A stretch of DNA of 53,003 nt from Drouetiella hepatica Uher 2000/2452. Lineage in GTDB: Bacteria > Cyanobacteriota > Cyanobacteriia > Elainellales > Elainellaceae. The notes beneath the pieces are model-generated. The model worked only from the letters and a program-made list of their open reading frames with translations, was not told the origin of the DNA and made no database searches. Below are positions 3,451 through 46,300 of this stretch, one piece after another. Position numbers and translations under genes: made by a program. The stretch is taken from NCBI GenBank assembly GCA_019359505.1, contig JAHHHD010000036.1, positions 1 to 53,003 on the forward strand. The letters are read 5' to 3'. Within the stretch, counting starts at the first letter, position 1; each line of letters starts with the position of its first letter.

Positions 3451-3665
3451 CTCAGCAAATCAAGAACTCCGCTGCGAGCGGGCGGAGTATGAACAGCCAA
3501 CTCTTCTAGCATTTTACTTACGCCGCAAGCGGCAGGGAATCTACCCTTAGAAATTGAAGAACTTAAGGAAGCAGGTAGAGTGGCAGTTCCCGTGCTTATC
3601 TTGCCAGCACAACGGCAGTGATTCGGGAACTCTAGTTTCTAGTCCTTAGTTTGATCAACTTTAGA
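3451..3665. other. Intergenic DNA with a short GC-rich inverted repeat
   Basis: Just after the GNAT stop there is a small CTCCGC...GCGGAG inverted repeat (about 3470-3487) not followed by a T-run. No gene or known element is recognised. Confidence 0.35.
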
Positions 3666-4175
3666 ATGCCGATTGCTACCCTCATTCTCACCACATACAA
3701 CCGATCGTCATACCTCCCCTCCGCCATCGCCAGCATCCTGTCTCAAACCCACCACAACTTTGAACTTCTTATCTGGGACGATGGCTCTACAGATGGCACC
3801 CTCGACATTGCTCAATCATACGCCCGTTAAGACGATCGCATTTGTCTAATTGCTGCCCCGCACCAAGGACGTGCCCAATCCCTCATCGCTGCCCATGCCC
3901 TAGCCTAAGGCAAGTATGTCGGTTGGGTAGATAGCGATGATCTGCTTGCCCCCACAGCCTTAGCAGAGACGATCGCCCATTTCAATACTCATCCCGAAGT
4001 CGGCAGGGGTTACACCGACTACCAGGTAATTGACGAGCACAATCGACTCAAAGGATAAGGAAACCGCTGCCGCATTCCTTATGACCCACAACGGTTATTA
4101 GTGGATTTCATGACGTTCCACTTCTGGCTGATGCGACGCAGCGTTTACGAGCAAGTGGGCACCGACAACCGTTGA
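3666..4175 (+). pseudogene. Family 2 glycosyltransferase pseudogene with three in-frame TAA codons
   Basis: One continuous frame reads as the N-terminal half of a GT-A glycosyltransferase: MPIATLILTTYNRSSYLPSA, then WDDGSTDGT (nucleotide-sugar-binding D-D), and GWVDSDDLL (the DxD-type metal site). It is interrupted only by TAA at 3828, 3906 and 4056, with no frameshift between them. At the second and third stops the surrounding sequence (ALA*GKYVGWVDSDD and LKG*GNRC) calls for glutamine, so CAA to TAA is the simplest change; the first (YAR*DDRI) is also compatible with Gln. Similarity ends at YEQVGTDN, so the 3' half is lost. Intact members usually have about 300 residues or more. Confidence 0.85.
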
Positions 4176-4377: not shown

Positions 4378-5310
4378 CTACGCTAACTGCAACCCTAGAT
4401 GACTGACCCCACAGTAGGCATCATGCACTTGAATGGCTTGCTCAAACTGGGGCAAAATCTGCGGCTCCCCGATGATCTTAATCAAGTGACAAACAGCATA
4501 AGCACTCGATACCGGTAACACGATGCCTGTGATGGGGTCATAAACAAATCGCTCTGGGTCTGCCTCAACCTCTACCCGCCAAGGCTTAGGCTGAAGCCTG
4601 GCGCGAAAGGTAGCCTGGAACTTGCACAGCTTGGCATACAACGGATCAACATAGAGGTTTTGCATCAAGCGTTGGGTCTGACGCTCCAGGGGGTCAAACT
4701 CCTGAGTGGTGCAGAAGTAGCGCAGTCCGTTTCGGGTGTGATACACCCGAAAGCCGAGGTGAGGATACTGCTCCACAATCAGATGTAGCGCCCCGATCGC
4801 CTGTCTTTGACTAAGAGCCACTTGGCAGTTCACTGGACAATCTCGGGGGTTGGCGAACTGAGGGACGCCCAGATCAACATCGACAATCAATAGATGCTCG
4901 GCATTGAGTACCAGACAGCCATAGCGGTTAAGGGTAATGGTTGCCTGCTGCTGCCCCTGGTAACAGATTTCATGCAGCACAGGTTCGTTCAATACACTGT
5001 ACTCACCTTGAGCTAAGCGATACCAATTGACGCTCTGAGAATAGTCGCCAATGGCAATGGGGCTGAGGGAGGTGATGCCACTGCGCTCAGGCAGAGAGAG
5101 AATCCCAGACCACTTCTCGATTAACAAGGCGGTGTCGGCGTGAGGGTCTGGGGCTATCACTAATTGCATCAGATACTCTCTCACCTGGGCGATCGGACTT
5201 TCAGCGTTCCGTTTGCCTGACCAGAAGCAGAGCTTGCGGTAGAGGTGAGGGTTTGCCTCAATGAACTGCTCAACTCTGTCTAAAGCCGTCATGGATGATG
5301 CGTTTGTCAA
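4378..5310 (-). CDS. Hypothetical protein, weak primase-like (AEP) motifs, last gene of a 3-gene operon
   Basis: A protein of up to 310 residues that I cannot place firmly. Residues 139-147 (LLIVDVDLG, Asp144/Asp146) followed about 45 residues later by YHTRNGLRYF (His191, Arg197) resemble the hhDhD and sxH motifs of archaeo-eukaryotic primases. The downstream Arg/Lys-rich FRARLQPKPWR is compatible with that fold. This is inference from motif shape only. The start is uncertain: TTG at 5310 has TGAGG about 10 nt upstream, whereas ATG at 5292 has no clear site. It follows two same-strand genes with gaps of 12 and about 57 nt, so the three are probably cotranscribed. Other options are an unknown nucleic-acid-binding protein or a cyanobacterial orphan family. 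Confidence 0.7.
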   Translation of the reverse strand: MTNASSMTALDRVEQFIEANPHLYRKLCFWSGKRNAESPIAQVREYLMQLVIAPDPHADTALLIEKWSGILSLPERSGITSLSPIAIGDYSQSVNWYRLAQGEYSVLNEPVLHEICYQGQQQATITLNRYGCLVLNAEHLLIVDVDLGVPQFANPRDCPVNCQVALSQRQAIGALHLIVEQYPHLGFRVYHTRNGLRYFCTTQEFDPLERQTQRLMQNLYVDPLYAKLCKFQATFRARLQPKPWRVEVEADPERFVYDPITGIVLPVSSAYAVCHLIKIIGEPQILPQFEQAIQVHDAYCGVSHLGLQLA

Positions 5311-11672: not shown

Positions 11673-11966
11673 ATGCCAAATCCCCTGCCATTGTTTCCTC
11701 CAATTGTCTTGCCTAAAACGATGCCGGTGAGCATTCCCCAACCCAAGTTTCATCTGGGTGAATCTGTTGGTTGGCAGGCTGAGGCAGACTTTGGGCGTGT
11801 GGTCGGAGTGATCTATAGCCATGAGGCAACGCATCAAGAAACGGGGCTACACTATTTGATTTTGCTTGACGCGCAGAGTCCCTCCCACAGGTTTTGTACC
11901 CATGACTTTGCTTTTGAGGAAGATTTGGAGCGCTTAGCCCACGGCTCTAGAGGTCAAGACTCATGA
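11673..11966 (+). CDS. Small hypothetical protein, first gene of the array-associated cluster
   Basis: A 97-residue protein of unknown function. The N-terminal ~25 residues are Pro-rich, followed by FHLGESVGWQAEADFGRVVG and GLHYLILLD, which read like a small beta-barrel (SH3-like or KOW-like) domain. The C-terminus is acidic. Its stop overlaps the start of the next gene (ATGA, 11963-11966), so the two are translationally coupled. It heads a plus-strand run that continues through an HTH protein, a glycine-rich RAMP-like protein, the 5-bp array and an HNH nuclease. Upstream (11581-11672) is AT-rich DNA likely to hold the promoter. No Shine-Dalgarno is visible. Confidence 0.65.
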   Translation: MPNPLPLFPPIVLPKTMPVSIPQPKFHLGESVGWQAEADFGRVVGVIYSHEATHQETGLHYLILLDAQSPSHRFCTHDFAFEEDLERLAHGSRGQDS

Positions 11967-12247
11967 CTAATTTCAACCAGCAGCGGGTGCTGGAGCTGCA
12001 CAACCGGATGTGTATGAATCCTGAAACTTTCAGTCACCGCTGGGGCATGAATGCTGGTGAGATTGCTGCAATCTGCGGGATTTCGCGATCGAGTGTCAGC
12101 CACTGGTTAGGGGGGCGTAGCAGTCGTCGCACACCGGGCGGTGCTCATCTGCGCATTTTGGCAGTGGCAGATTTTTTATTAACAAACGCAGAGCGGATTC
12201 AGCCTCTTCTGGAACGCTGGCAGCAGCCAGAAGAATCAGAAAGGTGA
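11963..12247 (+). CDS. HTH-domain protein of the array-associated cluster
   Basis: A 94-residue protein with a clear helix-turn-helix in the middle: MNAGEIAAICGISRSSVSHW is a good match to helix-turn-recognition helix (ICGIS-RSSVSHWL). A basic GGRSSRRTPGGAHL segment follows, then a C-terminal helix (ILAVADFLLTNAERI). It probably binds DNA as a regulator or as a DNA-binding subunit of the cluster. Its ATG overlaps the upstream stop by 4 nt. The next gene begins 93 nt downstream, far enough for a separate start but still consistent with one transcript. Confidence 0.75.
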   Translation: MTNFNQQRVLELHNRMCMNPETFSHRWGMNAGEIAAICGISRSSVSHWLGGRSSRRTPGGAHLRILAVADFLLTNAERIQPLLERWQQPEESER

Positions 12248-12340
12248 GCCTGTGTCAATTTGACATCATTTTCTTGCTTTACATTCTGCGCTGATGGTTA
12301 ATGGTTTCAAGCAATACGCTTGTTATTAAATTTCCCAACT

Positions 12341-12970
12341 ATGACACCACTAGCCTCAGTAATTGGTAATTTACTCACGGCACAAGTTTCCATACAAGGC
12401 ATACGACCACTTTTGTGGCACCACTTTGGAATAGACGCGATTCCTCTTCAAAAGCAGGAGACAGAAGGGGTGGCGGGACACAATCCAAACGAGTGGCGCA
12501 AAACTGTTTTGATGACCCCCGATCGCCAACTTTTTATCTACAGTACCTATGTTTTCAGCTGTATTCGGGCTGCTGCCCCATTCATCAAAAGGGGCAAATC
12601 GCTACAAATTGCGGTTTCTGCGACGCTACAGATTGAAGAAGAGGTTATTTTGATGAGCGATCGCTTTGTGCCACAGGAGCCAGAACTGATCGAGCGGAGT
12701 CAGACCTTTAAAGAGCTACCACCCGTCTACATCTATGTAGAAGGTGTAAAGAATCCATCAACAGGACGGCGAAACATTCGTTATCGAGTTGCTGCAGCCC
12801 CAGAGTGGAAGTGCCAATTCACGCTGAATTGGGATAAGACCGTACTCTCTCGTGAAGAGATGGAAGCTTTGTGCTTGACAGCGGGGCAATTTGTGGGCTT
12901 GGGCGATGGGCGGACGATCGGTTTTGGACGGTTTGACGTAACATCTTTCATTGTCTCCGATACATCCTAG
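12341..12970 (+). CDS. Protein with RAMP/Cas7-like glycine-rich C-terminus
   Basis: A 209-residue protein from the ATG at 12341; an in-frame TTG at 12320 would add 7 residues. I cannot name the family with certainty; it resembles, from memory, conserved unknown proteins of phages and plasmids. Visible features are an N-terminal strand with IRPLLWHHFG, a central EWRKTVLMTPDRQLFIYSTY, a conserved-looking CIRAAAPFIKRGKS, and near the C-terminus GLGDGRTIGFGRF (residues 186-198). That last motif looks like the glycine-rich loop of RAMP-superfamily RNA-binding proteins (Cas5/6/7). No catalytic His is evident. It ends 19 bp before a degenerate pentamer array, with an HNH nuclease just beyond. The RAMP link is inference. 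Confidence 0.7.
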   Translation: MTPLASVIGNLLTAQVSIQGIRPLLWHHFGIDAIPLQKQETEGVAGHNPNEWRKTVLMTPDRQLFIYSTYVFSCIRAAAPFIKRGKSLQIAVSATLQIEEEVILMSDRFVPQEPELIERSQTFKELPPVYIYVEGVKNPSTGRRNIRYRVAAAPEWKCQFTLNWDKTVLSREEMEALCLTAGQFVGLGDGRTIGFGRFDVTSFIVSDTS

Positions 12971-12989
12971 ATGTGTCGGACACCCATAC

Positions 12990-13103
12990 GGTTGGGTGGG
13001 GCTAGACAGGGCAGGACAAGATGGGATAAGTCGGGAACCGGCAAGGCAAGGTTAGGTGGGGCGTGGCCAGGAAGGCACGACAAGACAAGACAAGACAGGG
13101 AAC
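12990..13103 (+). repeat. Degenerate 5-bp-period tandem array (consensus GRYRR)
   Basis: In these 114 bp every fifth base is G. I count 17 successive pentamers from 12990 to 13074, one 4-nt slip (GCAC, 13075-13078), then five more pentamers to 13103. By hand, position 1 is G in 22/22 units, position 2 is G or A in 21, position 3 is C or T in 19, and positions 4-5 are mostly A or G (examples GGCAA, GACAA, GACAG, GGTGG). It fills the gap between the RAMP-like gene (stop 12970) and the HNH start (13108), and its last units supply the AGGGA ribosome-binding sequence. Period 5 is not a coding period. Confidence 0.85.
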
Positions 13104-13107
13104 AACC

Positions 13108-13416
13108 ATGCGGAGACGACGGCAGCCCAGAGCCATTTGGCAGCAAACTCGACAACGAATTTGGCAACGAGATAAAGGGCGCTGCCAGGGGCCCTATTGC
13201 TATGGAAAGCCTGCACAATCACTACTACTTTACAAGGCGCATATTGATCATGTGCTGGAACTTTCGCATAGAGGCACAAATGCAGACTCGAATCTACGTA
13301 CCCTCTGCCGGCGATGCCATGTGCTGAGAGCTAGAAAATCGCATCAAGGCATGATATCTAAAGCATTACACGATGGAATTATTCCACCAAACTGGCGATC
13401 GCTTGTATGGGAATAG
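13108..13416 (+). CDS. HNH endonuclease
   Basis: A 102-residue metal-dependent nuclease with a complete HNH finger. IWQRDKGRCQGPYC supplies Cys26 and Cys31, AHIDHVLELSHRG holds the catalytic His48, Asn62 (SNLRTLC) is the central residue, and CRRCH gives Cys67, Cys70 and His71. The four cysteines form the zinc knuckle common in phage and mobile-element HNH proteins. I start it at 13108 because AGGGA is correctly spaced upstream and the basic N-terminus MRRRRQPR fits the family; longer readings (from 13063 or in another frame from 12971) run through the 5-bp array. It is the last gene of the cluster. It could nick or cut DNA near the array, act as a homing-type nuclease or be an antiphage nuclease. 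Confidence 0.88.
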   Translation: MRRRRQPRAIWQQTRQRIWQRDKGRCQGPYCYGKPAQSLLLYKAHIDHVLELSHRGTNADSNLRTLCRRCHVLRARKSHQGMISKALHDGIIPPNWRSLVWE

Positions 13417-17302: not shown

Positions 17303-17420
17303 TAGACAATCTTTCCTAGCGCTGTAAAATTGGGCTATGTGGCTGCGGGAAAATAGCCTGTTAAGATTCCGCAGGGCTTTCCACTACTTTTTTCTGAGGA
17401 ATCTTACACTTCTTGACACT

Positions 17421-20024
17421 ATGGCTCGTTCAGGCTTGAGTGCTGAAACACGGAATCAAATCGAAGCTTTAGTTAATGCGCTTCTAGAGTGGGGAGACGC
17501 AGTGATTAACCATGGAGGGCAGTCGCCTTATGATATCGAGTTTGTTCAAGCTGAACAGCCTCAAGGTCAGACTTGGCTACGTGTTAAAGCTACTTATGAG
17601 TCTTTGTGCTGTCTTCTAAACTCGTCTCATTCTCAAAAGAGAAAAGATGAACGAAGGAGTATACGACGCTTATTAGAGGCTCGCATAGCAACTCTTGAAA
17701 AGGTTGAATTACTGGAGAAGATTCCTGATGGCATTCATAATCTTCCAGGAAAATCAGGGACTTATTTTGACTTGAAGCTGAGCTTAGATAATAAAAATGA
17801 AAGCCTAGAAGTGCTAAAAGAGAGATTAAATCTAAATAAGTCACAGACTTCGACCAATTCTCTTTTAGCCGAGCAGTCACAGACTTCGACCAATTCTCTT
17901 TTAGCCGAGCAGCCAAGTTCGAATATTGATGCTGACGTTCGCTACGTTCGGCAAAAACTCAATAGAATTATTCAACAGGAGTACGGTCAGATTTGCGTTT
18001 TTGGAATCTCACAACTTGTAAAGGTCTCAGATATCTATACTCAAACAGATATTTGGAAAGAACTCATTAATCAACGTTGGCCATCACCCTCCATGCTTTT
18101 GCAGCCGGCTCACTCTTCTGAGCACTTAAGCCGCCTTGGCAACGAACATTATGAACCACCGCGTTACTCTGGGTGGAAAACTGCTGAAGAGTCTCAACGC
18201 TTGATCGTGCTGGGCAAACCTGGAATTGGAAAAACAACCTACCTTCAGCATTTGAATGTCCAATGCATCGAAGGTGCGTTTCGACCTGATAAGGTTCCCA
18301 TCTTTGTACAATTGGCCCAGTTTGAACGAGTTTTTCGAAACGATCCAAGTCAGAATCTATTCCGTTTTATTTGTTCAATTCTAAGCAGATATGGAGTAGA
18401 TGCAGATAGAGTTCAGTCCATTCTGGAAGCTGGCAGAGCACTGCTTCTCTTTGATGGATTCGACGAAGTTCCTTCAATCAGCGATGAGCAGATAACGAAT
18501 CAACTTAGGCAATTTATTGCTCAATACCACCCTAAAAACTCTTTCTTCATCACCTGTCGCGTTGCAGCAAATCGATATCGGTTTGCCCAAGAAAATTTTA
18601 TTGAAGTTGAGGTTGCTGATTTCAACCGTAATCAGGCGAATTCTTTCATTCGCCTCTGGTTTAAAGCCCTCTTGAAAGATCGACCTGAGGCGGCTCATGC
18701 TCAAGCAGAAATATTGATTTCAGCGCTAAACCAGCCAAAACATCGCGCTATTCAAGATTTGGCAGTAACACCGCTAATGCTCAATTTAATTTGCACTGTG
18801 TTTCGAGATATAGAGGGATTACCTAGCGGTCGAACTGAACTTTACGAACGAGGTATTAATGCTCTTCTAGAAGATTGGGATCGGCATCGGCAGGTCTACC
18901 GCGAGACCATTTACCATAATTTGACCAAGGTAAATACCCTAGAGTTACTTCTCAAGATTGCAAGAGTCACGTTTGAGCAAGCCCATCTCCTGTTTGAGCA
19001 GAGGCAGGCTGAGTGGCTGACCTGCGAATACCTAGCATCCTTAAAATTAATTCCAGCTAATTCTGTGGAATTGCAAGAAGCCAGTACGATCGCCATTAGA
19101 AGAATCGCAGAAAATCATGGGCTTTTAGCCGAACGCGCACGTGGGATCCTCTCATTCTCTCACCTAACTTTTCATGAATATTTCACAGCGCGCTCAATCT
19201 GCCTAGAGCAAGCATGGCCAACATTACTAATTCATTTGCACGACTCGCAGTGGCGCGAGGTCTTTCTTCTAGCCGCTGAAATGTCTCCATTTGCAGATGA
19301 GGTAATTCGCCTTATGCTACAGGAGATTCAAACATCTTTTGCCAAGCACTCAGATTTGCAGCAGGTGCTAGCTTGGGTAAACCAGATGGCGACTAGAGCA
19401 GCTCAAGCGTTGCCATACAAAACATCAGCCCTGCGAGCCTGGTTTTTCTGTTTGGTCGGGTGCAATTTTGATGAAGGGGTTGAATCGTTTCGCAAAAGTG
19501 GTCAGGCTAACTCTGATTATCATGCGTTCTCATTGTCGCGATCAATGGGTCTTGATGAGGTTTTAGCAAACGATATTGCAGAACTGACCTTTCTGTATGA
19601 GCGACTGTGCCATGCTTTAAGTTTAGTTTCTAGAGAAGAAATAGTAACTGAGTTAATCTCAGCGCTCCCTGCTCTTCACCGCGATCGTCTAATTGACGGG
19701 CTATTACCTGCTATCTTGCCGATCAAAGCCTTATTGTTGCAGCTCGATGACCTTATCTCTCCTGCTCAGCAGAATTTATTTCTAACTTGGTGGCGACAAG
19801 AAGGGCAAGAATGGGCGTTGAATACACTAGAAATATATCGACAGACTGACGGTGCAGAGGCAGATATTCCTCAGCCTCCACAGGATGTTTTGAAGCAGTA
19901 CTATGACGCTAATCTACTGCTGCTAGATTGTATTAGGCGTGCAGGAGCGATAACAACCTCAGTGCGCGAGGCTGTAGAGACTACACTGCTTTTACCCAGT
20001 GAAATTGATGACTCAAGAGACTAA
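17421..20024 (+). CDS. NACHT-domain STAND NTPase
   Basis: A signal-transduction ATPase of about 867 residues. I prefer the start at 17421 (MARSGLSAETRN); an in-frame ATG at 17337 adds 28 residues rich in aromatics and unlike the family. Order: N-terminal helical domain (~1-130), a variable linker with a 12-residue tandem duplication (~140-164), a linker motif VKVSDIYTQTDIWKEL, the NACHT domain with Walker A GKPGIGKT (~265-272) and Walker B LLLFDGFDEVPS (~340-351), winged-helix and helical regions ending in SFSHLTFHEYFTAR, and a C-terminal helical domain finishing in VREAVETTLLLP, as in cyanobacterial NACHT proteins. Related STAND proteins sense phage or stress and trigger death. No classical effector domain is obvious at the N-terminus. 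An upstream palindrome pair may regulate it. Confidence 0.9.
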   Translation: MARSGLSAETRNQIEALVNALLEWGDAVINHGGQSPYDIEFVQAEQPQGQTWLRVKATYESLCCLLNSSHSQKRKDERRSIRRLLEARIATLEKVELLEKIPDGIHNLPGKSGTYFDLKLSLDNKNESLEVLKERLNLNKSQTSTNSLLAEQSQTSTNSLLAEQPSSNIDADVRYVRQKLNRIIQQEYGQICVFGISQLVKVSDIYTQTDIWKELINQRWPSPSMLLQPAHSSEHLSRLGNEHYEPPRYSGWKTAEESQRLIVLGKPGIGKTTYLQHLNVQCIEGAFRPDKVPIFVQLAQFERVFRNDPSQNLFRFICSILSRYGVDADRVQSILEAGRALLLFDGFDEVPSISDEQITNQLRQFIAQYHPKNSFFITCRVAANRYRFAQENFIEVEVADFNRNQANSFIRLWFKALLKDRPEAAHAQAEILISALNQPKHRAIQDLAVTPLMLNLICTVFRDIEGLPSGRTELYERGINALLEDWDRHRQVYRETIYHNLTKVNTLELLLKIARVTFEQAHLLFEQRQAEWLTCEYLASLKLIPANSVELQEASTIAIRRIAENHGLLAERARGILSFSHLTFHEYFTARSICLEQAWPTLLIHLHDSQWREVFLLAAEMSPFADEVIRLMLQEIQTSFAKHSDLQQVLAWVNQMATRAAQALPYKTSALRAWFFCLVGCNFDEGVESFRKSGQANSDYHAFSLSRSMGLDEVLANDIAELTFLYERLCHALSLVSREEIVTELISALPALHRDRLIDGLLPAILPIKALLLQLDDLISPAQQNLFLTWWRQEGQEWALNTLEIYRQTDGAEADIPQPPQDVLKQYYDANLLLLDCIRRAGAITTSVREAVETTLLLPSEIDDSRD
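17841..17912 (+). repeat. Perfect 36-bp tandem duplication inside the NACHT gene
   Basis: Two identical 36-bp units (17841-17876 and 17877-17912) encode a duplicated 12-residue SQTSTNSLLAEQ. The duplication keeps the reading frame, lies in the linker before the NACHT domain and, being perfect, must be recent or prone to copy-number change. Confidence 0.9.
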
Positions 20025-23711: not shown

Positions 23712-24725
23712 TTACCCGTTAGCTTCCGGTTGCTTCAACAATTGCTCCATTTCACTCAGCAGCTTCTCTAGTTTCTTCTTTTTCTGTGGATTTTCCCATA
23801 TCTTGGCCTGTTTAAGTTGTCTCGGAACCATTACAAGCCGTTGCGGAAGATCCATCAGCTTTTCAGGTTTTGTTGAGCGTAGTGTTTTGACTCGCTCTTG
23901 GATTTGATCAATGGACAAATTGCCAGCTAAAGCCGACTCTAGCAACTCCTGCTGCTGCACTGGATCTTTAACCTTTAGGATCTCGTTGACTTTGGTATAG
24001 TGCAATTTCCCTTGTTGAAAGACGGTTTGTATATACTCTGGCAGCCGTAGCAAAGGAAGACGATGTTTTCGAAAACTTTCCGGAGACAACCTTCCAGCAA
24101 TTTCAAATACATCTTTCACGATCTCCCAATCTTCAATACGGACAACGTTGGACGTAAGCCCTCGTTTCTGATTTGCTGCCTGGTTGAGTAGACTAATTAC
24201 CTCACTCTGCGATCGGTCTAAGTGCCGCGTTAGCATATTCATGATCGCATGAGTTTCTTCCCAAGCATTCAGATCGCTCCGTTGCAGGTTGCTAATCGAT
24301 TTGATGTCTTCTGCGGTGCTATCACCAACTTCAAAGATCCGCACCAAGACTGACTCTAACTTTGCACGTTCAGCCGAGCGATGCCGTTTTTCCCCAGCTA
24401 ATAAATCATATTCATCCGTTGATCCTGGACGTAATCGCACTGATAAGGGGTCAATTACCCCGACTGAACGCATGGATTTTGCCATGTTATTCAGTTCTAT
24501 TTCGTCAAAGTAACGGCGGTCTTGCCCGGAATCGCGGTGAATTTTGTTGAGCGGAACCCAAATAACTTCCGATTGATGTGAAGTCATTTGGGCTGAAAGA
24601 GTGGCAGATTCAGGCTCAGGGGATGGAGAAATAGCAGGAGTTGCTGGAGAGGTTACTGAATCAGATTCCTTACGAATCGTCTGCATTAATCCACTAAAGC
24701 GATTCGGTTTTTTAATATCAGCCAC
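23712..24725 (-). CDS. parB: ParB partition protein
   Basis: A plasmid-type ParB of about 337 residues. I start it at GTG 24725 because AAGGAG lies 7 nt upstream; the alternative GTG at 24728 and a longer frame from 24767 are less likely. The start overlaps the ParA stop (24718-24720), the classic coupled parAB layout. After a Ser/Pro-rich leader comes the N-domain with HRDSGQDRRYFDEIELNN, AGEKRHRSAERAKL (the GERR-type box with K for R) and SNLQRSDLNAWEE (ENxQR-type). A central HTH region follows, and the basic C-terminus has QAKIWENPQKKKKLEKLL, also seen in two relatives in this window. It should bind parS-like sites such as those at 24137 and 25365. Confidence 0.9.
   Translation of the reverse strand: MADIKKPNRFSGLMQTIRKESDSVTSPATPAISPSPEPESATLSAQMTSHQSEVIWVPLNKIHRDSGQDRRYFDEIELNNMAKSMRSVGVIDPLSVRLRPGSTDEYDLLAGEKRHRSAERAKLESVLVRIFEVGDSTAEDIKSISNLQRSDLNAWEETHAIMNMLTRHLDRSQSEVISLLNQAANQKRGLTSNVVRIEDWEIVKDVFEIAGRLSPESFRKHRLPLLRLPEYIQTVFQQGKLHYTKVNEILKVKDPVQQQELLESALAGNLSIDQIQERVKTLRSTKPEKLMDLPQRLVMVPRQLKQAKIWENPQKKKKLEKLLSEMEQLLKQPEANG
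24137..24156. promoter_or_regulatory. Candidate parS-like site inside parB
   Basis: TACGGACAACGTTGGACGTA fits the palindrome TACGNNCAACGTTGNNCGTA. It lies within the parB coding sequence and shares a 17-bp identity (24143-24159) with the site upstream of parA. Confidence 0.55.
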
Positions 24726-25326
24726 CACAAATCTCCTTACCGATCTCAAAATAGTCTTTCCAAGCAAGTTTTGCTTTTGAGTCTTTTACCTGTTCCACCA
24801 GAATCCCTTGATTAGCAGCTTTTTGAAAAGCAACTGCCTCACGGATCTTGCCCTTAAAAATTGGAAACCCTGATTGCTCCAGAAACTCACGAGCTTCCTC
24901 ACCCTCTCGCCTTGGGGAAGGATGAATCCTTGTCAAGAGGACACAATATTTTTCAGTTTTCAAGGACTTGAGCAACTCAACCGTTTGAATGAGCGCATCT
25001 AGAGAAAGCGAATCAGGCGTTGTTGGAAGAATAAGAAAGTCGCAGCCATCTACGATTTCTTTCATCTCTTCTTCTTCAGCGCTTGCTTCAGTATCAATGA
25101 CAAAATGCTCAATGCCTCGACTATATTTGGCGGCCTGGTTTACCCCAACAACCTTAAAGGGAAGCCCACCATTCTCTAGCCCTCTTTCTGCCCACCGGGT
25201 TGCTGAGCGATTAGTATCTCCATCAATGAGAAGCGTTTCTCCTTTTAGCTGTAGAAAGGCGGCAAGGTGTATAGCAGTAGTTGTCTTGGCTACACCGCCT
25301 TTCAAAGACGCAGTAGTAATGATCAT
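24718..25326 (-). CDS. parA: ParA family partition ATPase
   Basis: A 202-residue compact ParA/MinD-type ATPase that moves plasmid copies along the nucleoid with ParB. The deviant Walker A is KGGVAKTTTAIHLA near the N-terminus (the diagnostic first Lys of KGG is present), Walker A' is LLIDGDTNRSATRW, and Walker B is FLILPTTPD in a shortened form. The protein lacks the N-terminal HTH of type Ia ParA, so it belongs to the small type Ib-like or orphan class. It is first in the parAB pair and overlaps parB. A parS-like palindrome lies 39 bp upstream of the start codon. Confidence 0.92.
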   Translation of the reverse strand: MIITTASLKGGVAKTTTAIHLAAFLQLKGETLLIDGDTNRSATRWAERGLENGGLPFKVVGVNQAAKYSRGIEHFVIDTEASAEEEEMKEIVDGCDFLILPTTPDSLSLDALIQTVELLKSLKTEKYCVLLTRIHPSPRREGEEAREFLEQSGFPIFKGKIREAVAFQKAANQGILVEQVKDSKAKLAWKDYFEIGKEICGG

Positions 25327-26085: not shown

Positions 26086-27108
26086 TTGGTGAGCACGCTA
26101 GATTTAGGTGAATACGGGAGTCTTCTTGTTGAGGTCAAGCAGCGTATTCGCTCTGCTCAATACGAGGCGCTTAAAGCAGTCAATAAAGAACTGATTGCCT
26201 TGTACTGGGATATTGGAAATTTGATTTCAACTCGTCAGCAAGGCGATAGCTGGGGAAAGTCGATCGTTGAACAGTTGGCTAAAGACTTGCAAGCAGAGTT
26301 CCCAGGCATGGGTGGTTTCTCTGTCCGTAATATCTGGAATATGCGAAGCTTCTACGTCACTTACAGCCAAAATCAAAAACTGCAACCAATGATTGCAGAA
26401 ATTGGATGGACCCACAATTTGACCATCATGGAGAAGTGTAAGGATGATCTAGAGCGAGAGTTCTACATCCGGATGACTCGTAAATATGGCTGGACAAGGA
26501 ACGTTTTACTCCATCAAATTGAAAATCAGACCTATGAAAAGACGCTATTAAACCAAACGAATTTTGAGGCTACAATTTCTGAAGAGATTCAGAATCAAGC
26601 TAAATTAGCGGTAAAGGACGAGTACACGTTCCCATTTTTGGAACTGGGGGACAAATATTCGGAACGTCAACTTGAGACTGCCATCTTGGCAAAAGTTGAA
26701 CCTTTCCTTCAAGAGATGGGTGGAATGTTCACCTTTGTTGGAAGCCAATACCGTTTAGAAGTCGGCAACAAAGAATACTTTATTGATATTGTGCTCTATC
26801 ACCGATCGTTACAATGTCTTGTGGCGATCGATCTCAAGATTGGGGAGTTTGAGCCAGAGTATATTGGCAAAATGCAGTTCTATCTAGCGGTGCTGGATGA
26901 TCAGGTGAGGCTCCCGCATGAGCAGCCTTCAGTTGGCATCATCCTGTGTAAGATGAAGGATAAAACGACAGTGGAATATGCATTGAAAGATGCTACTAAG
27001 CCGATCGGGGTTGCAACTTATCGAATGACTTCGACATTACCACAGGAACTAAAGGGACAACTGCCTAATCCTGAGCAGGTAGCAAAGTTGTTAGAAGGTC
27101 TGAATTGA
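26086..27108 (+). CDS. PDDEXK nuclease domain protein, YhcG-like (DUF1016)
   Basis: A 340-residue protein of the YhcG/DUF1016 family. The N-terminal half is the DUF1016 helical domain: ALYWDIGNLISTRQ, GWGKSIVEQLAKDLQ-like segment, GFSVRNIWNMRSFY and the conserved IGWTHNLTIMEKC. The C-terminal half is the PDDEXK nuclease: YFIDIVLYHRSLQCLVAIDL followed by KIGEFEPEYIGKMQFYL, giving Asp and D-x-K in place of E-x-K. Translation starts at TTG 26086 or the adjacent GTG 26089, both just after GAGGGG. Members occur beside restriction systems and mobile elements. It is next to a ParB fragment, so it may have arrived in the rearrangement that cut that gene. Confidence 0.9.
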   Translation: MVSTLDLGEYGSLLVEVKQRIRSAQYEALKAVNKELIALYWDIGNLISTRQQGDSWGKSIVEQLAKDLQAEFPGMGGFSVRNIWNMRSFYVTYSQNQKLQPMIAEIGWTHNLTIMEKCKDDLEREFYIRMTRKYGWTRNVLLHQIENQTYEKTLLNQTNFEATISEEIQNQAKLAVKDEYTFPFLELGDKYSERQLETAILAKVEPFLQEMGGMFTFVGSQYRLEVGNKEYFIDIVLYHRSLQCLVAIDLKIGEFEPEYIGKMQFYLAVLDDQVRLPHEQPSVGIILCKMKDKTTVEYALKDATKPIGVATYRMTSTLPQELKGQLPNPEQVAKLLEGLN

Positions 27109-27120
27109 GAGAGTATCAAG

Positions 27121-27912
27121 CTAGATTAAGTCTGGATCAATTCCCATTTCTCGAAGCCTTTCTGCTAATCTAGCGGCTTTTTCTTCGGCAGACTCAGCCC
27201 GTTGCTCTGCTACAACGGCTTGTTCGCTGCCAGTCAATAGCAAATCGCCCTGCACATCCCACCAACGTAACCAAGGCTGGGTCTGATTCTGATAAGCACC
27301 TTCCCAAACCCCAACTTCTACTTCCATTTGCGGAATCAGGTAGTGACCACGACTATTAGCTATCATCTGCTGATACTGTCCGCCTACCAGCTCATACATC
27401 TCTAGTTCACCGCTGTTGATAAAAAAAATGCCATAGTACGGAATCCGCATAATCTGCTCATAGACCCAAAATTTACCGGGTCTAGTTGTTCCACCCTCTT
27501 CAGAGTAAGAAAGTGGGGTTTGGTCATATTCCTCGCTGCCATTACCCGAAGCAAACTCCAGAGCGATCGTCGGGGCAATAAACTCTCGCCATAAAACATA
27601 CGATCGCCGGATTGCCCCTCTCAGTCTAGGCGGCACATTTGGCACATAAAACCAGTCTGGGGCCTCTGCTCCTTTTTCCGGTGGATCTGTTTCTCGCCAG
27701 TAAATTCCACAATCTTGCCCGATCGCATACTGCCCATCAGGATGAAGTCGTTCTAGGGTTATTCCAATTGAGTCAGTCAAGATTAAGGATTGTGGATGTT
27801 CCTGAAAATTCTTCACAAACGAACCGTCCGACTCTGGTAGCTGCGTGTGGTCGGGAAACTGTGGCGGCAGCTCATCAGGAGCCAATGCATTTTGAGTTAG
27901 GGTTTCAGCCAT
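27121..27912 (-). CDS. Uma2 family endonuclease-like protein (DUF820)
   Basis: A 263-residue member of the Uma2 family, which is extremely common in cyanobacteria and has a PD-(D/E)XK restriction-endonuclease-like fold. Typical segments are DWFYVPNVPP (P-D-W for the PD motif), LWREFIAPTIALEFASGNGSE (E at the E-x-K position), KFWVYEQIMRIPYYGIFF and VGVWEGAYQNQTQPWLRWWD. A coiled-coil tail (AEQRAESAEEKAARLAERLR) closes the protein, as in many relatives. It stands alone and convergent with the PDDEXK gene, with a 12-nt gap. Biochemical role is not established for the family. Confidence 0.9.
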   Translation of the reverse strand: MAETLTQNALAPDELPPQFPDHTQLPESDGSFVKNFQEHPQSLILTDSIGITLERLHPDGQYAIGQDCGIYWRETDPPEKGAEAPDWFYVPNVPPRLRGAIRRSYVLWREFIAPTIALEFASGNGSEEYDQTPLSYSEEGGTTRPGKFWVYEQIMRIPYYGIFFINSGELEMYELVGGQYQQMIANSRGHYLIPQMEVEVGVWEGAYQNQTQPWLRWWDVQGDLLLTGSEQAVVAEQRAESAEEKAARLAERLREMGIDPDLI

Positions 27913-39186: not shown

Positions 39187-41043
39187 CTAATTTTGAGACC
39201 GATATTTTGAGCCATCCGGCATGATGGCTCCTTCCCTGAAAGCAGCCGCCAATTCAGACTCACTGACCTTGGCTCCTTTCAAATTCGCACCCGTTAGATA
39301 GGCTTCTGCTAAATTTGCGCCACTCAAGCTGGTGTTCCTCAAATTGGCTCCGCTGAAATTAACGTGGCTTAAATCGGCACAAACCAAATTAGCATGACTG
39401 AGATTAGCGCTGCTGAGGTTAGCTCGATTCAACTCAGCAAAACTGAGATTAGCGCCGCTCAGATTCGCACCACTCAGTTTGGTCTGGTGCAGAGCCGCTC
39501 TGTTAAGATTGGCGCTGCTTAAGTTGGCGTTGCTAAGATCTGCTGCGCTCAAATTCGCGTTACTCAAGTTCGCTTTGGGAAGCTGAATTTCGGTTAACTC
39601 TGAACCTGGGGCATCCAATCCTCTGAGCGGAACACCGTCTTCATTCAAGTCTTGCAATGCCAAAATTCTGGCGTAGCTCACTTTTACCCCATGAGCAGCA
39701 TCGATCGTGCCCCAGGCTTGATAGTGGAATTGTTTACGGCGATCGGGCGCTTCTTTGATAAACAGCACTAGAGCAACAACTAGACTTGCCGTATCGGCGG
39801 CTTCTAAAAGTTCTGCCACGAGAGAGTTATCATCGACAATGACAGTAAGGGCTAACCAGCTAACGGCTGCCAGAATGGCTACTAACCAGACTGGAGCTGC
39901 CCAGAAAGCGTCAACTGCCTGCCCCAAAACTTGACTTGGAAAGGTATGCCAGTGGGGATTAAAGACTTTTGTCCGAAACTCACCAATTCGTTGCTTAGAG
40001 TTAGTTTCTGATGTTGTTAAGGGTTCTGAAGCTCTTTTCCCTTCGGCTGTTGCTGTTTTCTCGTCTGCTGTCTTCTTAGCTTCAGTTGTCTTTGGGGGTG
40101 ATTGTTGAGGAGCACCTTTCAGCATCTGTGCAACGATGGTGCCGTAAGCATCCGTCCAGGCTTTGCTGAGTTCAGGAGTCCATTCAGCTTGTAGATATTG
40201 CTCAAACGTGAGCAACAGGGCTTGTCCCACTGCAGGATATTGTTGGGGAAGCGACCCATAGCCAACGTGTCTGGCTCCCAGTGCACTGAGAACGGGCGCT
40301 AAAGCGCTGGGATTGCGAAGATTTTCGACCACTAACACCAGTGCGTTTAAGAGTTTCTTCTTCTGCTCTGCCATCTTGACCTGGGCAAATAGTGGCTTTA
40401 CCTCTGGATGAGCCTGAAACAAGTTTTCGTAAAAGCTAGCGACAAATTCTTCAGCATGAGGCTTAATTTTCTCAAAGCTTTCCTCTAATAGCTCGACGGG
40501 AAGCTCTGATATTGCCACTGCAGGTGTTGCCTCGACTTCAGTTAGTGCATCTGGTACGGTGCTGGCTGCGCTCTCTGCGATCGCCCTCTGATGATTTGAA
40601 GGGGTTTCTGGCTCCGATCGCTCTTCTTCTACATGAACATTCCTCGCTCCCTTCAACATCTGTGCAGTAATGGCTCCATAAGCATCGCTCCAGGCTTGCT
40701 TCAGTTCAGGAGTCCAATTGGGCTGGAGATATTGCTCAAGTGACAGCAGCAGAGCCTGACCCACCGCAGGGTAATATTTGGGAATGGCTCCATAGCCAAC
40801 ATGTCTGGCTCCCAGAGCATCCAGAACTTCTCCTAAAACCTCTGGATTGCGAAGATTTTCAACTACTAACACCAGTGCATTCAGCAGCTTTTTCTGCTGT
40901 TTCACTATGTCGGTACTGACAAACAAAGGTTTTACCTCTGGATGGGCAGCAAACAAGTGTTCGTAAAAACTGGCTACAAATTCGTCTGCACGAGGTTTAA
41001 CTTGCTCAAAACTTTGCTCTAATAATTCAACATTGAGAGACAT
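39187..41043 (-). CDS. Tandem-globin / transmembrane / pentapeptide-repeat fusion protein
   Basis: A 618-residue fusion that I do not know as a named family. Residues ~1-135 and ~183-312 are two flavohemoglobin-type globin domains (each with SFYE-LF-AHPEVKPLF and proximal His81 or His259 in LGARHVGYG, followed by YPAVGQALLL). Between them and after them are Ser/Thr/Glu-rich linkers. Residues ~380-403 (APVWLVAILAAVSWLALTVI) and ~410-432 (ADTASLVVALVLFI) are two transmembrane helices. Residues ~490-600 are a pentapeptide-repeat solenoid (A(N/D)LSx units). This suggests a heme-based O2/NO or redox sensor at the membrane with a right-handed beta-helix output. It is last in a same-strand run of seven genes that also encodes an NADPH oxidase and an amine oxidase. 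Confidence 0.88.
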   Translation of the reverse strand: MSLNVELLEQSFEQVKPRADEFVASFYEHLFAAHPEVKPLFVSTDIVKQQKKLLNALVLVVENLRNPEVLGEVLDALGARHVGYGAIPKYYPAVGQALLLSLEQYLQPNWTPELKQAWSDAYGAITAQMLKGARNVHVEEERSEPETPSNHQRAIAESAASTVPDALTEVEATPAVAISELPVELLEESFEKIKPHAEEFVASFYENLFQAHPEVKPLFAQVKMAEQKKKLLNALVLVVENLRNPSALAPVLSALGARHVGYGSLPQQYPAVGQALLLTFEQYLQAEWTPELSKAWTDAYGTIVAQMLKGAPQQSPPKTTEAKKTADEKTATAEGKRASEPLTTSETNSKQRIGEFRTKVFNPHWHTFPSQVLGQAVDAFWAAPVWLVAILAAVSWLALTVIVDDNSLVAELLEAADTASLVVALVLFIKEAPDRRKQFHYQAWGTIDAAHGVKVSYARILALQDLNEDGVPLRGLDAPGSELTEIQLPKANLSNANLSAADLSNANLSSANLNRAALHQTKLSGANLSGANLSFAELNRANLSSANLSHANLVCADLSHVNFSGANLRNTSLSGANLAEAYLTGANLKGAKVSESELAAAFREGAIMPDGSKYRSQN

Positions 41044-44275: not shown

Positions 44276-46300
44276 CTAAAAATTCTCTTTCCTGTAGCCA
44301 AATCCGTATTTGTGACAGAGATGTCTTAATTGCAATGACAATCCTGGAGGTCCGCAGAAATAGACATCAACTTTATCCGGCGCGTGCTGCTGTGCTATGT
44401 CGCGGAAAATCTTATCCCAGTCTGGACGCCCCGTTTGTGTACGGCTCTTTAAACCTGTGATCAAGTCGACCTGCGTTTGAGCATGCATCAAATCCATTGC
44501 CACAAACAGGGTGCTAGATTTCATATCTGACTTTTGTTGGGCACCTGTCAGATACAAGTTAATGTCAAATAGGTCATTAGTGTCTTGGGCTTCAATTCTG
44601 GATAGGAGTTCAACAAACCATTCAAACGCTTTTTGCTCTCGGTTGAGCCAGAAAAAATGTACCTTTTGCAACCGCATGCCTGAAGAACCGTGTTGGCTTC
44701 GATACAGCATACTCTTTAGAATAGAGGCAAATGGAGTTACGCCAATACCTGCACCGATGAGAATAGCGTACTTAGATTCAAAAATGTGGGTACTGGGTGT
44801 CCCATAGGGTCCATCTAAATGAACAAGTACTCCAGGCTCGTATTTAGAGCTACCTGACCGTATCCACTGCTCATGCTGTTCTCGGAAGAGCTGATAAAGT
44901 TTTCCAGTCCAACTGCCCGCAGAGCGGATGTGTACCGATAAGACATCCTGCATTTCGGGAGCACTGCTAATTGTGAATGGATGCCATTCATATTTAGACA
45001 GACTGGGACATTTAACAAACACATAGTCCCCTGGTTGATAGTGAAAAGATTGCGGACGTGCAATTTCCAAACCTAGAACTTTTGAGGGGAGTAGAGAGGC
45101 ATTAACAACATAGGCTGGATCTTTTGTATTTCGAGCGCGAATGACCTGTTCGATCGCAAATCCTAATACGGGTACCAATACCCACTGCCAAAATACTGGG
45201 CCATGAACTAATGCCAGGACAAACCAGACGACATACAGCATATGAGCCGTATAGAAAAGCGCAAATTTTCCGCCTTTACGAATCGGAGCTTGTGCTGTTA
45301 CCCACATAATTGCGAAAACTAGCAGTAACAAAAAGCCTGACAAGCCAGCCTTCGTCTCAAAAAGACTCTGAGCAAAGGGAACGGGTAATGTAGTGTAATT
45401 AAGAAAATGGGCGATCGTATGTGCGATCGCAAAGCCAAACATGAACTGACCCACGAGTTTGTGAAACTCAATGCCCTCATCTATCGGAAGATAGTTGTTG
45501 ATGCTTGTTTTGCGAAGCCAAGTCATAAAATGCCGCAGCATCGGAATTAGAATCAAAGCGCCGTTGAAGTTTAGCGCTGCCCCACATCCCCGCGCGATTT
45601 GAACATATAAATTTGCGCCTTGGTCTGCATATCGATCGGCTGCCCAAAAGAAAAGCAACAAATTGGCAATAAGGTAGAGAGACAAAAAAGCGATTTTGAT
45701 CCAATTGTTTTGAATGTAATGCTTGATGTAAGACTTTCGCGACCTCTTCTTAGGCACAACGGGTATTGCGTCATCTGGCTTGCGAGGTTTCAGCCAACTA
45801 ACGGGGCTAACTGCCATTGCCTCAAGAAGATCGGGATGCTTTTCTATTAAACCTTTGAACTCTTCAAACGAAATTTCGCCACTTTTATCCGTGTCCGCTT
45901 CTAGGAACAAAATGTCAACTAGAGCGGTAACTTGTTCTGGCGGGAAGTTGAGATTGTTTTCGTTCAAGCTAGCGACTATCAAGTGAGAAACTTCGTCTTT
46001 TTCGATGGCACCATCTCCGTTTATGTCGTGCAACTGATAAGCGAATTTCAGTTTTTCCTCTTCAGTTGTAAAGACAAGTTCCTCTACTGTTTTCAAAAAT
46101 TCTTCGCTATCAATAATCCCAGTTCTATCATTATCAAACAGGGAAAACATTCGTTCTGCGAAATACTCATCCTTCAGCCCCAGAGCTTTCTTAAACTCTG
46201 AGCGATCGATGCTCTGATCTTTTCCAGCAATCTTAGTAAAGACTTGTCGCAATTCCTCTAAAATTTTTCTTGGCGTATCCATTTTTCTTGGCGTATCCAT
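44276..46300 (-). CDS. EF-hand NADPH oxidase, NOX5-like
   Basis: A 674-residue superoxide-generating flavocytochrome. The N-terminus repeats MDTPRK twice because an 18-bp unit is duplicated. Three canonical EF-hand loops occur at 56-67 (DNDRTGIIDSEE), 92-103 (DINGDGAIEKDE) and 136-147 (DTDKSGEISFEE). The six-helix ferric-reductase-like domain has the two bis-His heme pairs: FHKLVGQFMFGFAIAHTIAH and YTAHMLYVVWFVLALVHG. The dehydrogenase domain has HPFTISSAPEM (FAD), GAGIGVTPFASILKSML (NADPH) and VYFCGPPGLS (C-terminal NADPH). Ca2+ should activate it, and electrons cross the membrane to O2. This layout is well known for eukaryotic NOX5 and some cyanobacterial NOX. It heads the same-strand run of redox genes. 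Confidence 0.95.
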   Translation of the reverse strand: MDTPRKMDTPRKILEELRQVFTKIAGKDQSIDRSEFKKALGLKDEYFAERMFSLFDNDRTGIIDSEEFLKTVEELVFTTEEEKLKFAYQLHDINGDGAIEKDEVSHLIVASLNENNLNFPPEQVTALVDILFLEADTDKSGEISFEEFKGLIEKHPDLLEAMAVSPVSWLKPRKPDDAIPVVPKKRSRKSYIKHYIQNNWIKIAFLSLYLIANLLLFFWAADRYADQGANLYVQIARGCGAALNFNGALILIPMLRHFMTWLRKTSINNYLPIDEGIEFHKLVGQFMFGFAIAHTIAHFLNYTTLPVPFAQSLFETKAGLSGFLLLLVFAIMWVTAQAPIRKGGKFALFYTAHMLYVVWFVLALVHGPVFWQWVLVPVLGFAIEQVIRARNTKDPAYVVNASLLPSKVLGLEIARPQSFHYQPGDYVFVKCPSLSKYEWHPFTISSAPEMQDVLSVHIRSAGSWTGKLYQLFREQHEQWIRSGSSKYEPGVLVHLDGPYGTPSTHIFESKYAILIGAGIGVTPFASILKSMLYRSQHGSSGMRLQKVHFFWLNREQKAFEWFVELLSRIEAQDTNDLFDINLYLTGAQQKSDMKSSTLFVAMDLMHAQTQVDLITGLKSRTQTGRPDWDKIFRDIAQQHAPDKVDVYFCGPPGLSLQLRHLCHKYGFGYRKENF

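Follow-up and report, generated by a model that had tools for sequence, protein, structure and literature searches.

VIPR (Viral Interference Programmable Repeat) systems were described in a 2026 preprint (PMC13142463; bioRxiv 2026.04.26.720920 v2) and consist of a RAMP-family protein of ~20 kD, Vipr, with an RRM core, a G-loop and a thumb, together with an RNA termed vrRNA and an accessory gene. The vrRNAs co-purify with Vipr and are built of alternating GGY and NN elements, with 9–16 repeats and a structured tail at the 3′ end (PMC13142463). Double-stranded DNA is recognised via the NN letters with one target base skipped, the skipped base being the codon wobble position, and transcriptional repression has been shown as a consequence (PMC13142463). 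Seven types and the accessory genes vap1–6 were distinguished, those of types III–V being predicted nucleases or helicases, and nuclease accessory genes were tied to target destruction (PMC13142463). The reported targets are phage, prophage and satellite, and the Vipr clade branches apart from Cas5, Cas6 and Cas7 (PMC13142463).

Here, we describe a locus on a contig of 53,003 bases, the whole of which is referred to below as the window. Judged by its sequence, this locus is a VIPR, with a Vipr protein, a predicted vrRNA of the GGY/NN type and a candidate accessory protein, and it is a new, HNH-linked and plasmid-type one. The initial annotation of this DNA had proposed an undescribed system, a claim that fails since VIPR with GGY/NN vrRNAs was already in the 2026 preprint (PMC13142463); the window is therefore a new representative of a kind known since 2026. 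The proposal is thus supported in part, and its essentials have held up: the RAMP fold of the protein, the homologue-linked arrays in phages, plasmids and chromosomal contigs, and a nucleic-acid-guided system of mobile elements. A literature search by the VIPR name returned only PMC13142463, the main text of which mentions neither HNH nor cyanobacteria and names no conjugation-gene target.

The locus and the element that carries it

The features of the locus are as follows.

11673–11966, forward strand: small protein, its gene sharing 4 bases with the HTH gene; a homologue is present in 9/66 loci
11963–12247, forward strand: HTH protein, possible regulator, with HTH families scoring below their cut-offs
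12341–12970, forward strand: vipr, encoding a 209-aa RAMP (Cas7/Csm3-like) protein by its fold; the reading frame is also open from a TTG at 12320
12956–12980, forward strand: predicted 11-bp hairpin spanning the vipr stop codon, directly before the tract
12990–13069, forward strand: putative vrRNA guide tract of 16 G-R-Y-N-N pentamers, whose NN letters match the predicted target
13070–13103, forward strand: 3′ end of the array, a 4-nt unit followed by GGCAC, three GACAA, GACAG and GGAAC
13108–13416, forward strand: HNH endonuclease, candidate accessory protein (vap), matching PF01844 (E 2.7e-9, 37.5 bits against a cut-off of 21.4)

The 209-aa Vipr protein matched no family in Pfam and matched PHROG phrog_4652, of function unknown (E 1.5e-11); its G-loop is GLGDGRTIGFGRF. 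An AlphaFold2 model built from a 39-row alignment had a pLDDT of 90.8 and a pTM of 0.85. When this model was used in a Foldseek search, Csm chains ranked first (E 3.7e-8), and VIA-align gave Z 11.5 for a Csm chain (rmsd 4.1, 166 residues, 14% identity) and also Z 11.5 for a type VII Cas7 chain. The protein also matches the end of Cas6 models weakly (E 4e-4 in PADLOC; 14.9 bits against a cut-off of 58.65), which among the reading frames scanned was the sole trace of a class 1 CRISPR-Cas. According to the model, the assignment of a Cas7/Csm3 RAMP fold to the 209-residue protein holds: the RAMP/Cas7-like character had been proposed from the letters, with structure prediction as its check, and Csm3/Cas7 chains indeed come out best.

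The HNH protein, 102 aa long, resembles IscB in the HNH region only (27.3 bits against a cut-off of 175), and identification of its gene as an IscB (OMEGA) nuclease was rejected, as a full IscB protein is not present. Homologues of the HTH protein precede vipr in 8/66 loci, all of them cyanobacterial, and profile searches assigned no family to the small protein at 11673–11966.

The window codes for a CyRepA1 replication protein that scores above the NCBIfam cut-off, for two ParB-type proteins, a tyrosine recombinase and cargo genes, and its ends show no terminal overlap of at least 16 bases. The relatives of the genome are cyanobacteria, and the carrier may be a cyanobacterial plasmid or an integrated plasmid-like element. 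Its other genes include a NACHT (STAND) NTPase gene (17337–20024), a candidate defence gene that holds a perfect 36-bp tandem duplication (17839–17912); a second ParB-like gene and putative nucleases of DUF1016/YhcG type and Uma2 (23712–24767 and 26086–27912); and, as unusual cargo, a double-globin protein with pentapeptide repeats (39187–41043); an EF-hand ferric-reductase/NADPH-oxidase-like protein (44276–46300); and an adenylate or guanylate cyclase with a globin at its end (47128–49728).

The pentamer array and its linkage to vipr and HNH genes

From position 12990, a G recurs at every fifth base, 18 times in strict register, longer than any other single-base run at periods 2–12 in the window, and once a single 4-nt unit (13070–13073) is permitted, the array spans 12990–13103 as 23 units. 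The lag-5 autocorrelation of the array was 0.578, compared with 0.311 (sd 0.043) in 2000 dinucleotide-preserving shuffles, none of which was as high (z 6.3; 0/2000); lags 10 and 15 were also raised, and lag 3 was not. Five consecutive GRYRR units, with at most 2 mismatches, matched the window 8 times, every time inside the array, against an expectation of 0.05. By position, the units contain G100 at position 1, G54 A40 T4 at position 2, C63 T27 A9 at position 3, A54 G22 T13 at position 4 and A45 G36 C13 at position 5, giving the consensus G-R-Y-N-N.

The initial annotation had described 22 pentamers with one 4-nt slip and the consensus G-R-Y-R-R, lying between a RAMP-like gene and an HNH gene, with a period that is neither coding nor that of a microsatellite. 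The G at every fifth base, the slip and the lag-5 peak over shuffled sequence are all borne out, as are the flanking genes, of which the RAMP-like one stops at 12970 and the HNH one begins at 13108; as a refinement, 12990–13069, with 16 units, is the stretch that matches a target. A coding period was dropped because lag 3 is not raised, and a microsatellite because the units vary while the G is kept. A type III toxin–antitoxin RNA and a TRAP-like leader were also considered and dropped.

Tandem Repeats Finder picked up only the perfect GACAA part of the array (13079–13097), and Rfam gave 0 matches in the window. When the assembly that contains the window was searched with BLAST, a method ill-suited to diverged arrays, the array itself was the sole match; a short array motif was present at three further places in the assembly, none of them with a period-5 run of at least 9. 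The G register continues to the HNH start codon, with 23 units in the register compared with 16 that match the target, and no separate 3′ tail was recognised between the tract and the HNH start in the window. Much of the sequence at 13070–13103 is common to a homologous locus, L014 (homologous loci are cited by such labels where needed), and this stretch is probably a constant, non-guiding 3′ part. RNA folding of 13 loci placed a hairpin in some of these: stems comparable to that of the window, with differing sequence, were predicted in L014, L018, L085 and L083.

Homologous loci were gathered by protein sequence alone. Homologues of vipr were found in 6/60 genomes of relatives and 16/388 genomes of the class, the own genome being included in both counts, in 2/72,556 plasmid records (Nostoc and Paenibacillus), in Phormidesmis priestleyi BC1401 and IMG/VR (2 and 46 loci), and in 116/50,697 phage records, whose hosts by name are nearly all enterobacterial and among which one felixounavirus locus was opened. 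For linkage counts, 18 of 84 loci were dropped as duplicate, overlapping or near-identical, leaving 66 non-redundant ones. A G-every-5 array with a score of at least 11 was present on the coding strand, at most 1 kb away, in 60/66 loci, compared with 10/66 on the opposite strand, 3/82 in control stretches 2–4 kb away and 0/66 in block-shuffled flanks, which answers the question raised at the outset of whether such arrays adjoin the homologues in phages and plasmids. Counted without slips, period 5 reached a score of 11 in 59/66 loci, and periods 3, 4 and 6–9 did so in at most 2. Six loci had no array at this score (L055, L060, L080, L082, L091 and L093); L060 offers only 286 bases on one side, L091 ends within the gene and L093 is a fragment. 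An HNH gene adjoins vipr on the same strand in 56/66 loci. The array lies between the vipr and HNH genes, behind both, or ahead of vipr, and it is found on the vipr strand also in phage contigs and a Paenibacillus plasmid. In several phage contigs, the array is a series of tracts. The tract series, the hairpin-like stretches between the tracts of one of them (L057) and the hairpin at the vipr stop codon point to an array that would work as RNA.

Several individual loci have layouts of their own. The viral contig L059 carries six successive GTYNN tracts of 16–20 units each between vipr and HNH (4658–5293), set apart by similar short stretches in a CRISPR-like layout, and L057 carries four tracts (3573–3978), whose intervening stretches, read by eye, resemble two short hairpins with stems that vary in both arms from copy to copy. 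Second tracts on the opposite strand, 1.3–2.8 kb upstream of vipr, were observed in viral contigs L030 (1125–1224), L036 (2546–2620), L044 (2609–2688), L045 (2009–2093) and L052 (2661–2730). A 59-unit minus-strand period-5 G run with little-varied letters, 3.9 kb upstream of vipr in L019 (1404–1698), is either a vrRNA array or low-complexity coding sequence. Plasmid unnamed4 of the Gram-positive Paenibacillus cellulosilyticus (L024) has a GGYNN tract of 15 units along with vipr and HNH; the plasmid collection has no annotated gene in this region. Phormidesmis priestleyi BC1401 (G124) has an 84%-identical vipr with an in-frame stop and a retained tract (L014, also listed as L090), and a second, uninterrupted vipr (L077).

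A predicted target site in plasmid conjugation clusters

An NN core is common to three guides, namely those of the window, L014 and L083. Between the window and L014 guides, likeness was 23/32 in the NN letters vs 20/32 in positions 2–3 (P 0.60), and in the two pairs with L083 it was 19/22 vs 13/22 (P 0.09) and 20/22 vs 12/22 (P 0.016). For the target search, the L014 guide was read as NNxNNx on the opposite strand, converted into a peptide and compared by tblastn with 72,556 plasmid records. This reverse-read peptide matched two records, both cyanobacterial, at E values of 4 and 8 that are weak alone. On Leptolyngbya NIES-3755 plasmid1, the window guide, which played no part in the tblastn search but is related to the L014 guide, matches a single site with 27/32 NN letters at a 1-nt skip, compared with 19/32 at the next place on that plasmid and at most 19 at other skips. 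The score of the window guide at the Oscillatoria site was 20/32, which the best skip-0 place also reached there.

Homologues of the target gene were fetched, and the scanned set comprised 32 loci with 171,542 bases. Here, the window guide reached 27/32 in 6/32 loci, compared with at most 20 at skips 0, 2 and 3 and at most 23/32 (mean 20.3) for 200 order-shuffled window guides; at equal base frequencies, the chance of 27/32 is P 2.8e-12 per place and 9.7e-7 over the scanned set. The 5 mismatches in 32 fall in units 1, 2 and 4. The L014 guide reached 29/32 at the target, and 22/22 over 11 dinucleotides in L219, and the L083 guide 22/24, with 21/22 over 11 dinucleotides. All three guides had an identical best site in 33/34 loci, L238 showing no such site; L209, with 100% identity to the L208 gene, was kept in these guide scans (32- and 34-locus sets). 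The three guides have a common origin and each locus was selected because it has the gene, so these tests are not independent of one another. The window itself is without a target site (best 19/32). Based on these matches, we predict the conjugation-cluster site to be the natural target of the window guide.

Other searches delimit this prediction. A blind skip scan with 130 tracts over 539,793 bases of the retrieved loci gave 37, 51 and 33 sites of at least 17/20 for skips 0, 1 and 2, and 1054 for skip 3, which are the arrays themselves; over these 0.54 Mb, the skip rule was not recovered and no convincing target emerged. Two window-type cores, searched in viral contigs as gapped exact patterns, had 0 matches each. 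The one match of a shorter window-type core was without extension and was attributed to chance, as were the 89 and 20 matches of two felixounavirus guide cores, with mean extensions of 0.275 and 0.248. The L014 guide read forward as a peptide found nothing in plasmids or phages, its reverse reading nothing in phages, and the reverse peptide of an L018-type guide found nothing. When 123 tracts were compared with the target loci, 1, 7, 2 and 1 tracts reached at least 19/22 for skips 0, 1, 2 and 3; four of the seven skip-1 tracts are the window, L014 and L083 guides, L014 being counted twice (as L090). An L051 tract scored 19/22. Tracts of L058, L046 and L086 were not accepted as further targeting guides, as they matched only 27/52, 22/38 and 24/44 over their full length, and for the other cyanobacterial guides, no target was accepted.

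The Leptolyngbya target gene, LEP3755_64710, encodes 760 aa with an M23 peptidase domain at the end. A T4SS coupling protein (TrwB/TraD-type) follows it at a distance of 1.1 kb, and a MobA/VirD2-type relaxase is found farther along the same plasmid. The Oscillatoria homologue has a T4SS DNA-binding protein close by, and its plasmid is typed as conjugative. This neighbourhood suggests that the target gene serves conjugation. The site commonly encodes CTPYF[IL]GPVPF. Among 32 distinct sites, a count that leaves out L209 and L238, the majority-base frequency was 0.91 and 0.88 at the paired bases, compared with 0.56 at the skipped base, which is the third codon position. The guide would hence read the protein-conserved bases and pass over the drifting ones; its strand is complementary to the sense strand of the target gene (antisense). 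Searching the own genome with the target protein gave a best E value of 8.6e-31, a strength suggesting that the match covers the M23 part only. The L083 genome also holds a target homologue, with an open frame, which its own guide matches in 21/24 letters. The window guide is nearest to Leptolyngbya-type sites and the L014 guide to the L219/L220 type, and guide alleles seem to follow target alleles.

Proposed mechanism and comparison with known systems

We consider it likely that this locus is an HNH-linked VIPR, on a cyanobacterial plasmid or plasmid-like element, that interferes with conjugative plasmids through the predicted site. The tract would be transcribed as vrRNA and coated by Vipr subunits, one per G-R-Y-N-N pentamer, as the fold and the preprint suggest (PMC13142463). 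The NN dinucleotides would then pair with DNA as NNxNNx with one base skipped, a rule taken from PMC13142463 with which the sequence matches agree, at a single site in a conjugation-cluster gene of other cyanobacterial plasmids. The site encodes a conserved motif of which the guide skips the wobble positions, so that one fixed guide would fit many diverged plasmids. The array is best read as a putative RNA guide laid out in 5-nt steps, for a target in which each step spans 3 nt, two of them paired (NN) and one skipped; the initial annotation had proposed a protein that reads DNA or RNA in 5-nt steps. On balance, we favour a model in which binding blocks the target gene, with probable cleavage of the DNA by the HNH protein, and the outcome would be the exclusion of incoming or competing conjugative plasmids. 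The well-matched target homologue in the L083 genome speaks against plain lethal cutting, and because the guide is antisense to the gene, action on mRNA is also possible.

The same two observations, a guide complementary to the sense strand of the target gene and a near-matching target gene kept in the L083-system genome, would suit a VIPR that acts by silencing only, on DNA or mRNA, with the HNH protein being a free-standing homing-type nuclease or having another role, and transcriptional repression is indeed reported in PMC13142463. We nevertheless regard silencing only as unlikely: a same-strand HNH gene by vipr in 56/66 loci is above expectation for a stray homing gene, and PMC13142463 ties nuclease accessory genes to target destruction. 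The match of 27/32 at one place where shuffled guides reach at most 23 (P 9.7e-7 over the scanned set), and the agreement of three guides on the site in 33/34 loci, also make it quite improbable that the system has another present target, such as a virus, and that the conjugation-gene match is accidental or a relic, even though the targets given in PMC13142463 are phage, prophage and satellite ones, 5 of the 32 letters of the window guide are mismatched and other cyanobacterial guides gave no accepted target. The CyRepA1 and ParB genes nearby could recommend a plain DNA repeat, either as plasmid iterons or as a partition site, with Rep, ParB or the HTH protein as its reader; however, the array stays with the RAMP gene, and on the same strand, in phage contigs and in a Paenibacillus plasmid as well, and the NN letters match the target by a 3-nt rather than a 5-nt rule, leaving this explanation with hardly any credibility.

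There is a fairly good chance that HNH-linked cyanobacterial plasmid VIPRs in general are plasmid-against-plasmid weapons, in which a fixed guide reading only the first two codon positions of a conserved peptide covers a whole diverged family of conjugative plasmids. The sequences analysed here, which are separate ones, support the noncontiguous guide code of PMC13142463 and widen the predicted use of VIPR from phage–phage conflicts to the blocking of plasmid conjugation. Wobble skipping explains how a guide of fixed sequence could keep a diverged plasmid family at bay and, if true, this immunity would address a protein motif by way of DNA. The prediction yields an exact 48-nt target site.

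Among related proteins, felixounavirus VpaE1_087 (Escherichia phage vB_EcoM-VpaE1) is a Vipr homologue with 26.8% identity; like the window, its locus bears pentamer tracts on its strand, but several of them, and in the homologue-locus search it had no HNH neighbour. The Vipr fold is like that of class 1 CRISPR effector subunits, namely Csm3 and type VII Cas7 (Z 11.5, rmsd 4.1–4.3, 161–166 residues), whereas sequence identity to them is 12–14% and the locus has a single RAMP gene. Cas7 proteins follow a guide step of 6 nt, unlike the window array, which steps 5 nt. Disruption at every sixth position is described in PMC13142463. The window shares with the VIPR systems of that preprint a small RAMP protein, tandem pentamers, an accessory gene and a mobile element, as well as a predicted target whose codon wobble positions fall on the 1-nt skips (PMC13142463). 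It differs in its HNH accessory gene and cyanobacterial host, neither of which the main text names, and from the GGY pattern in the frequent A at the second position of its units. Between the tract and the HNH start no separate 3′ tail was recognised, and a hairpin is predicted on the 5′ side of the tract. Finally, in contrast to the phage, prophage and satellite targets of VIPR, the predicted target of the window is a plasmid conjugation-cluster gene.
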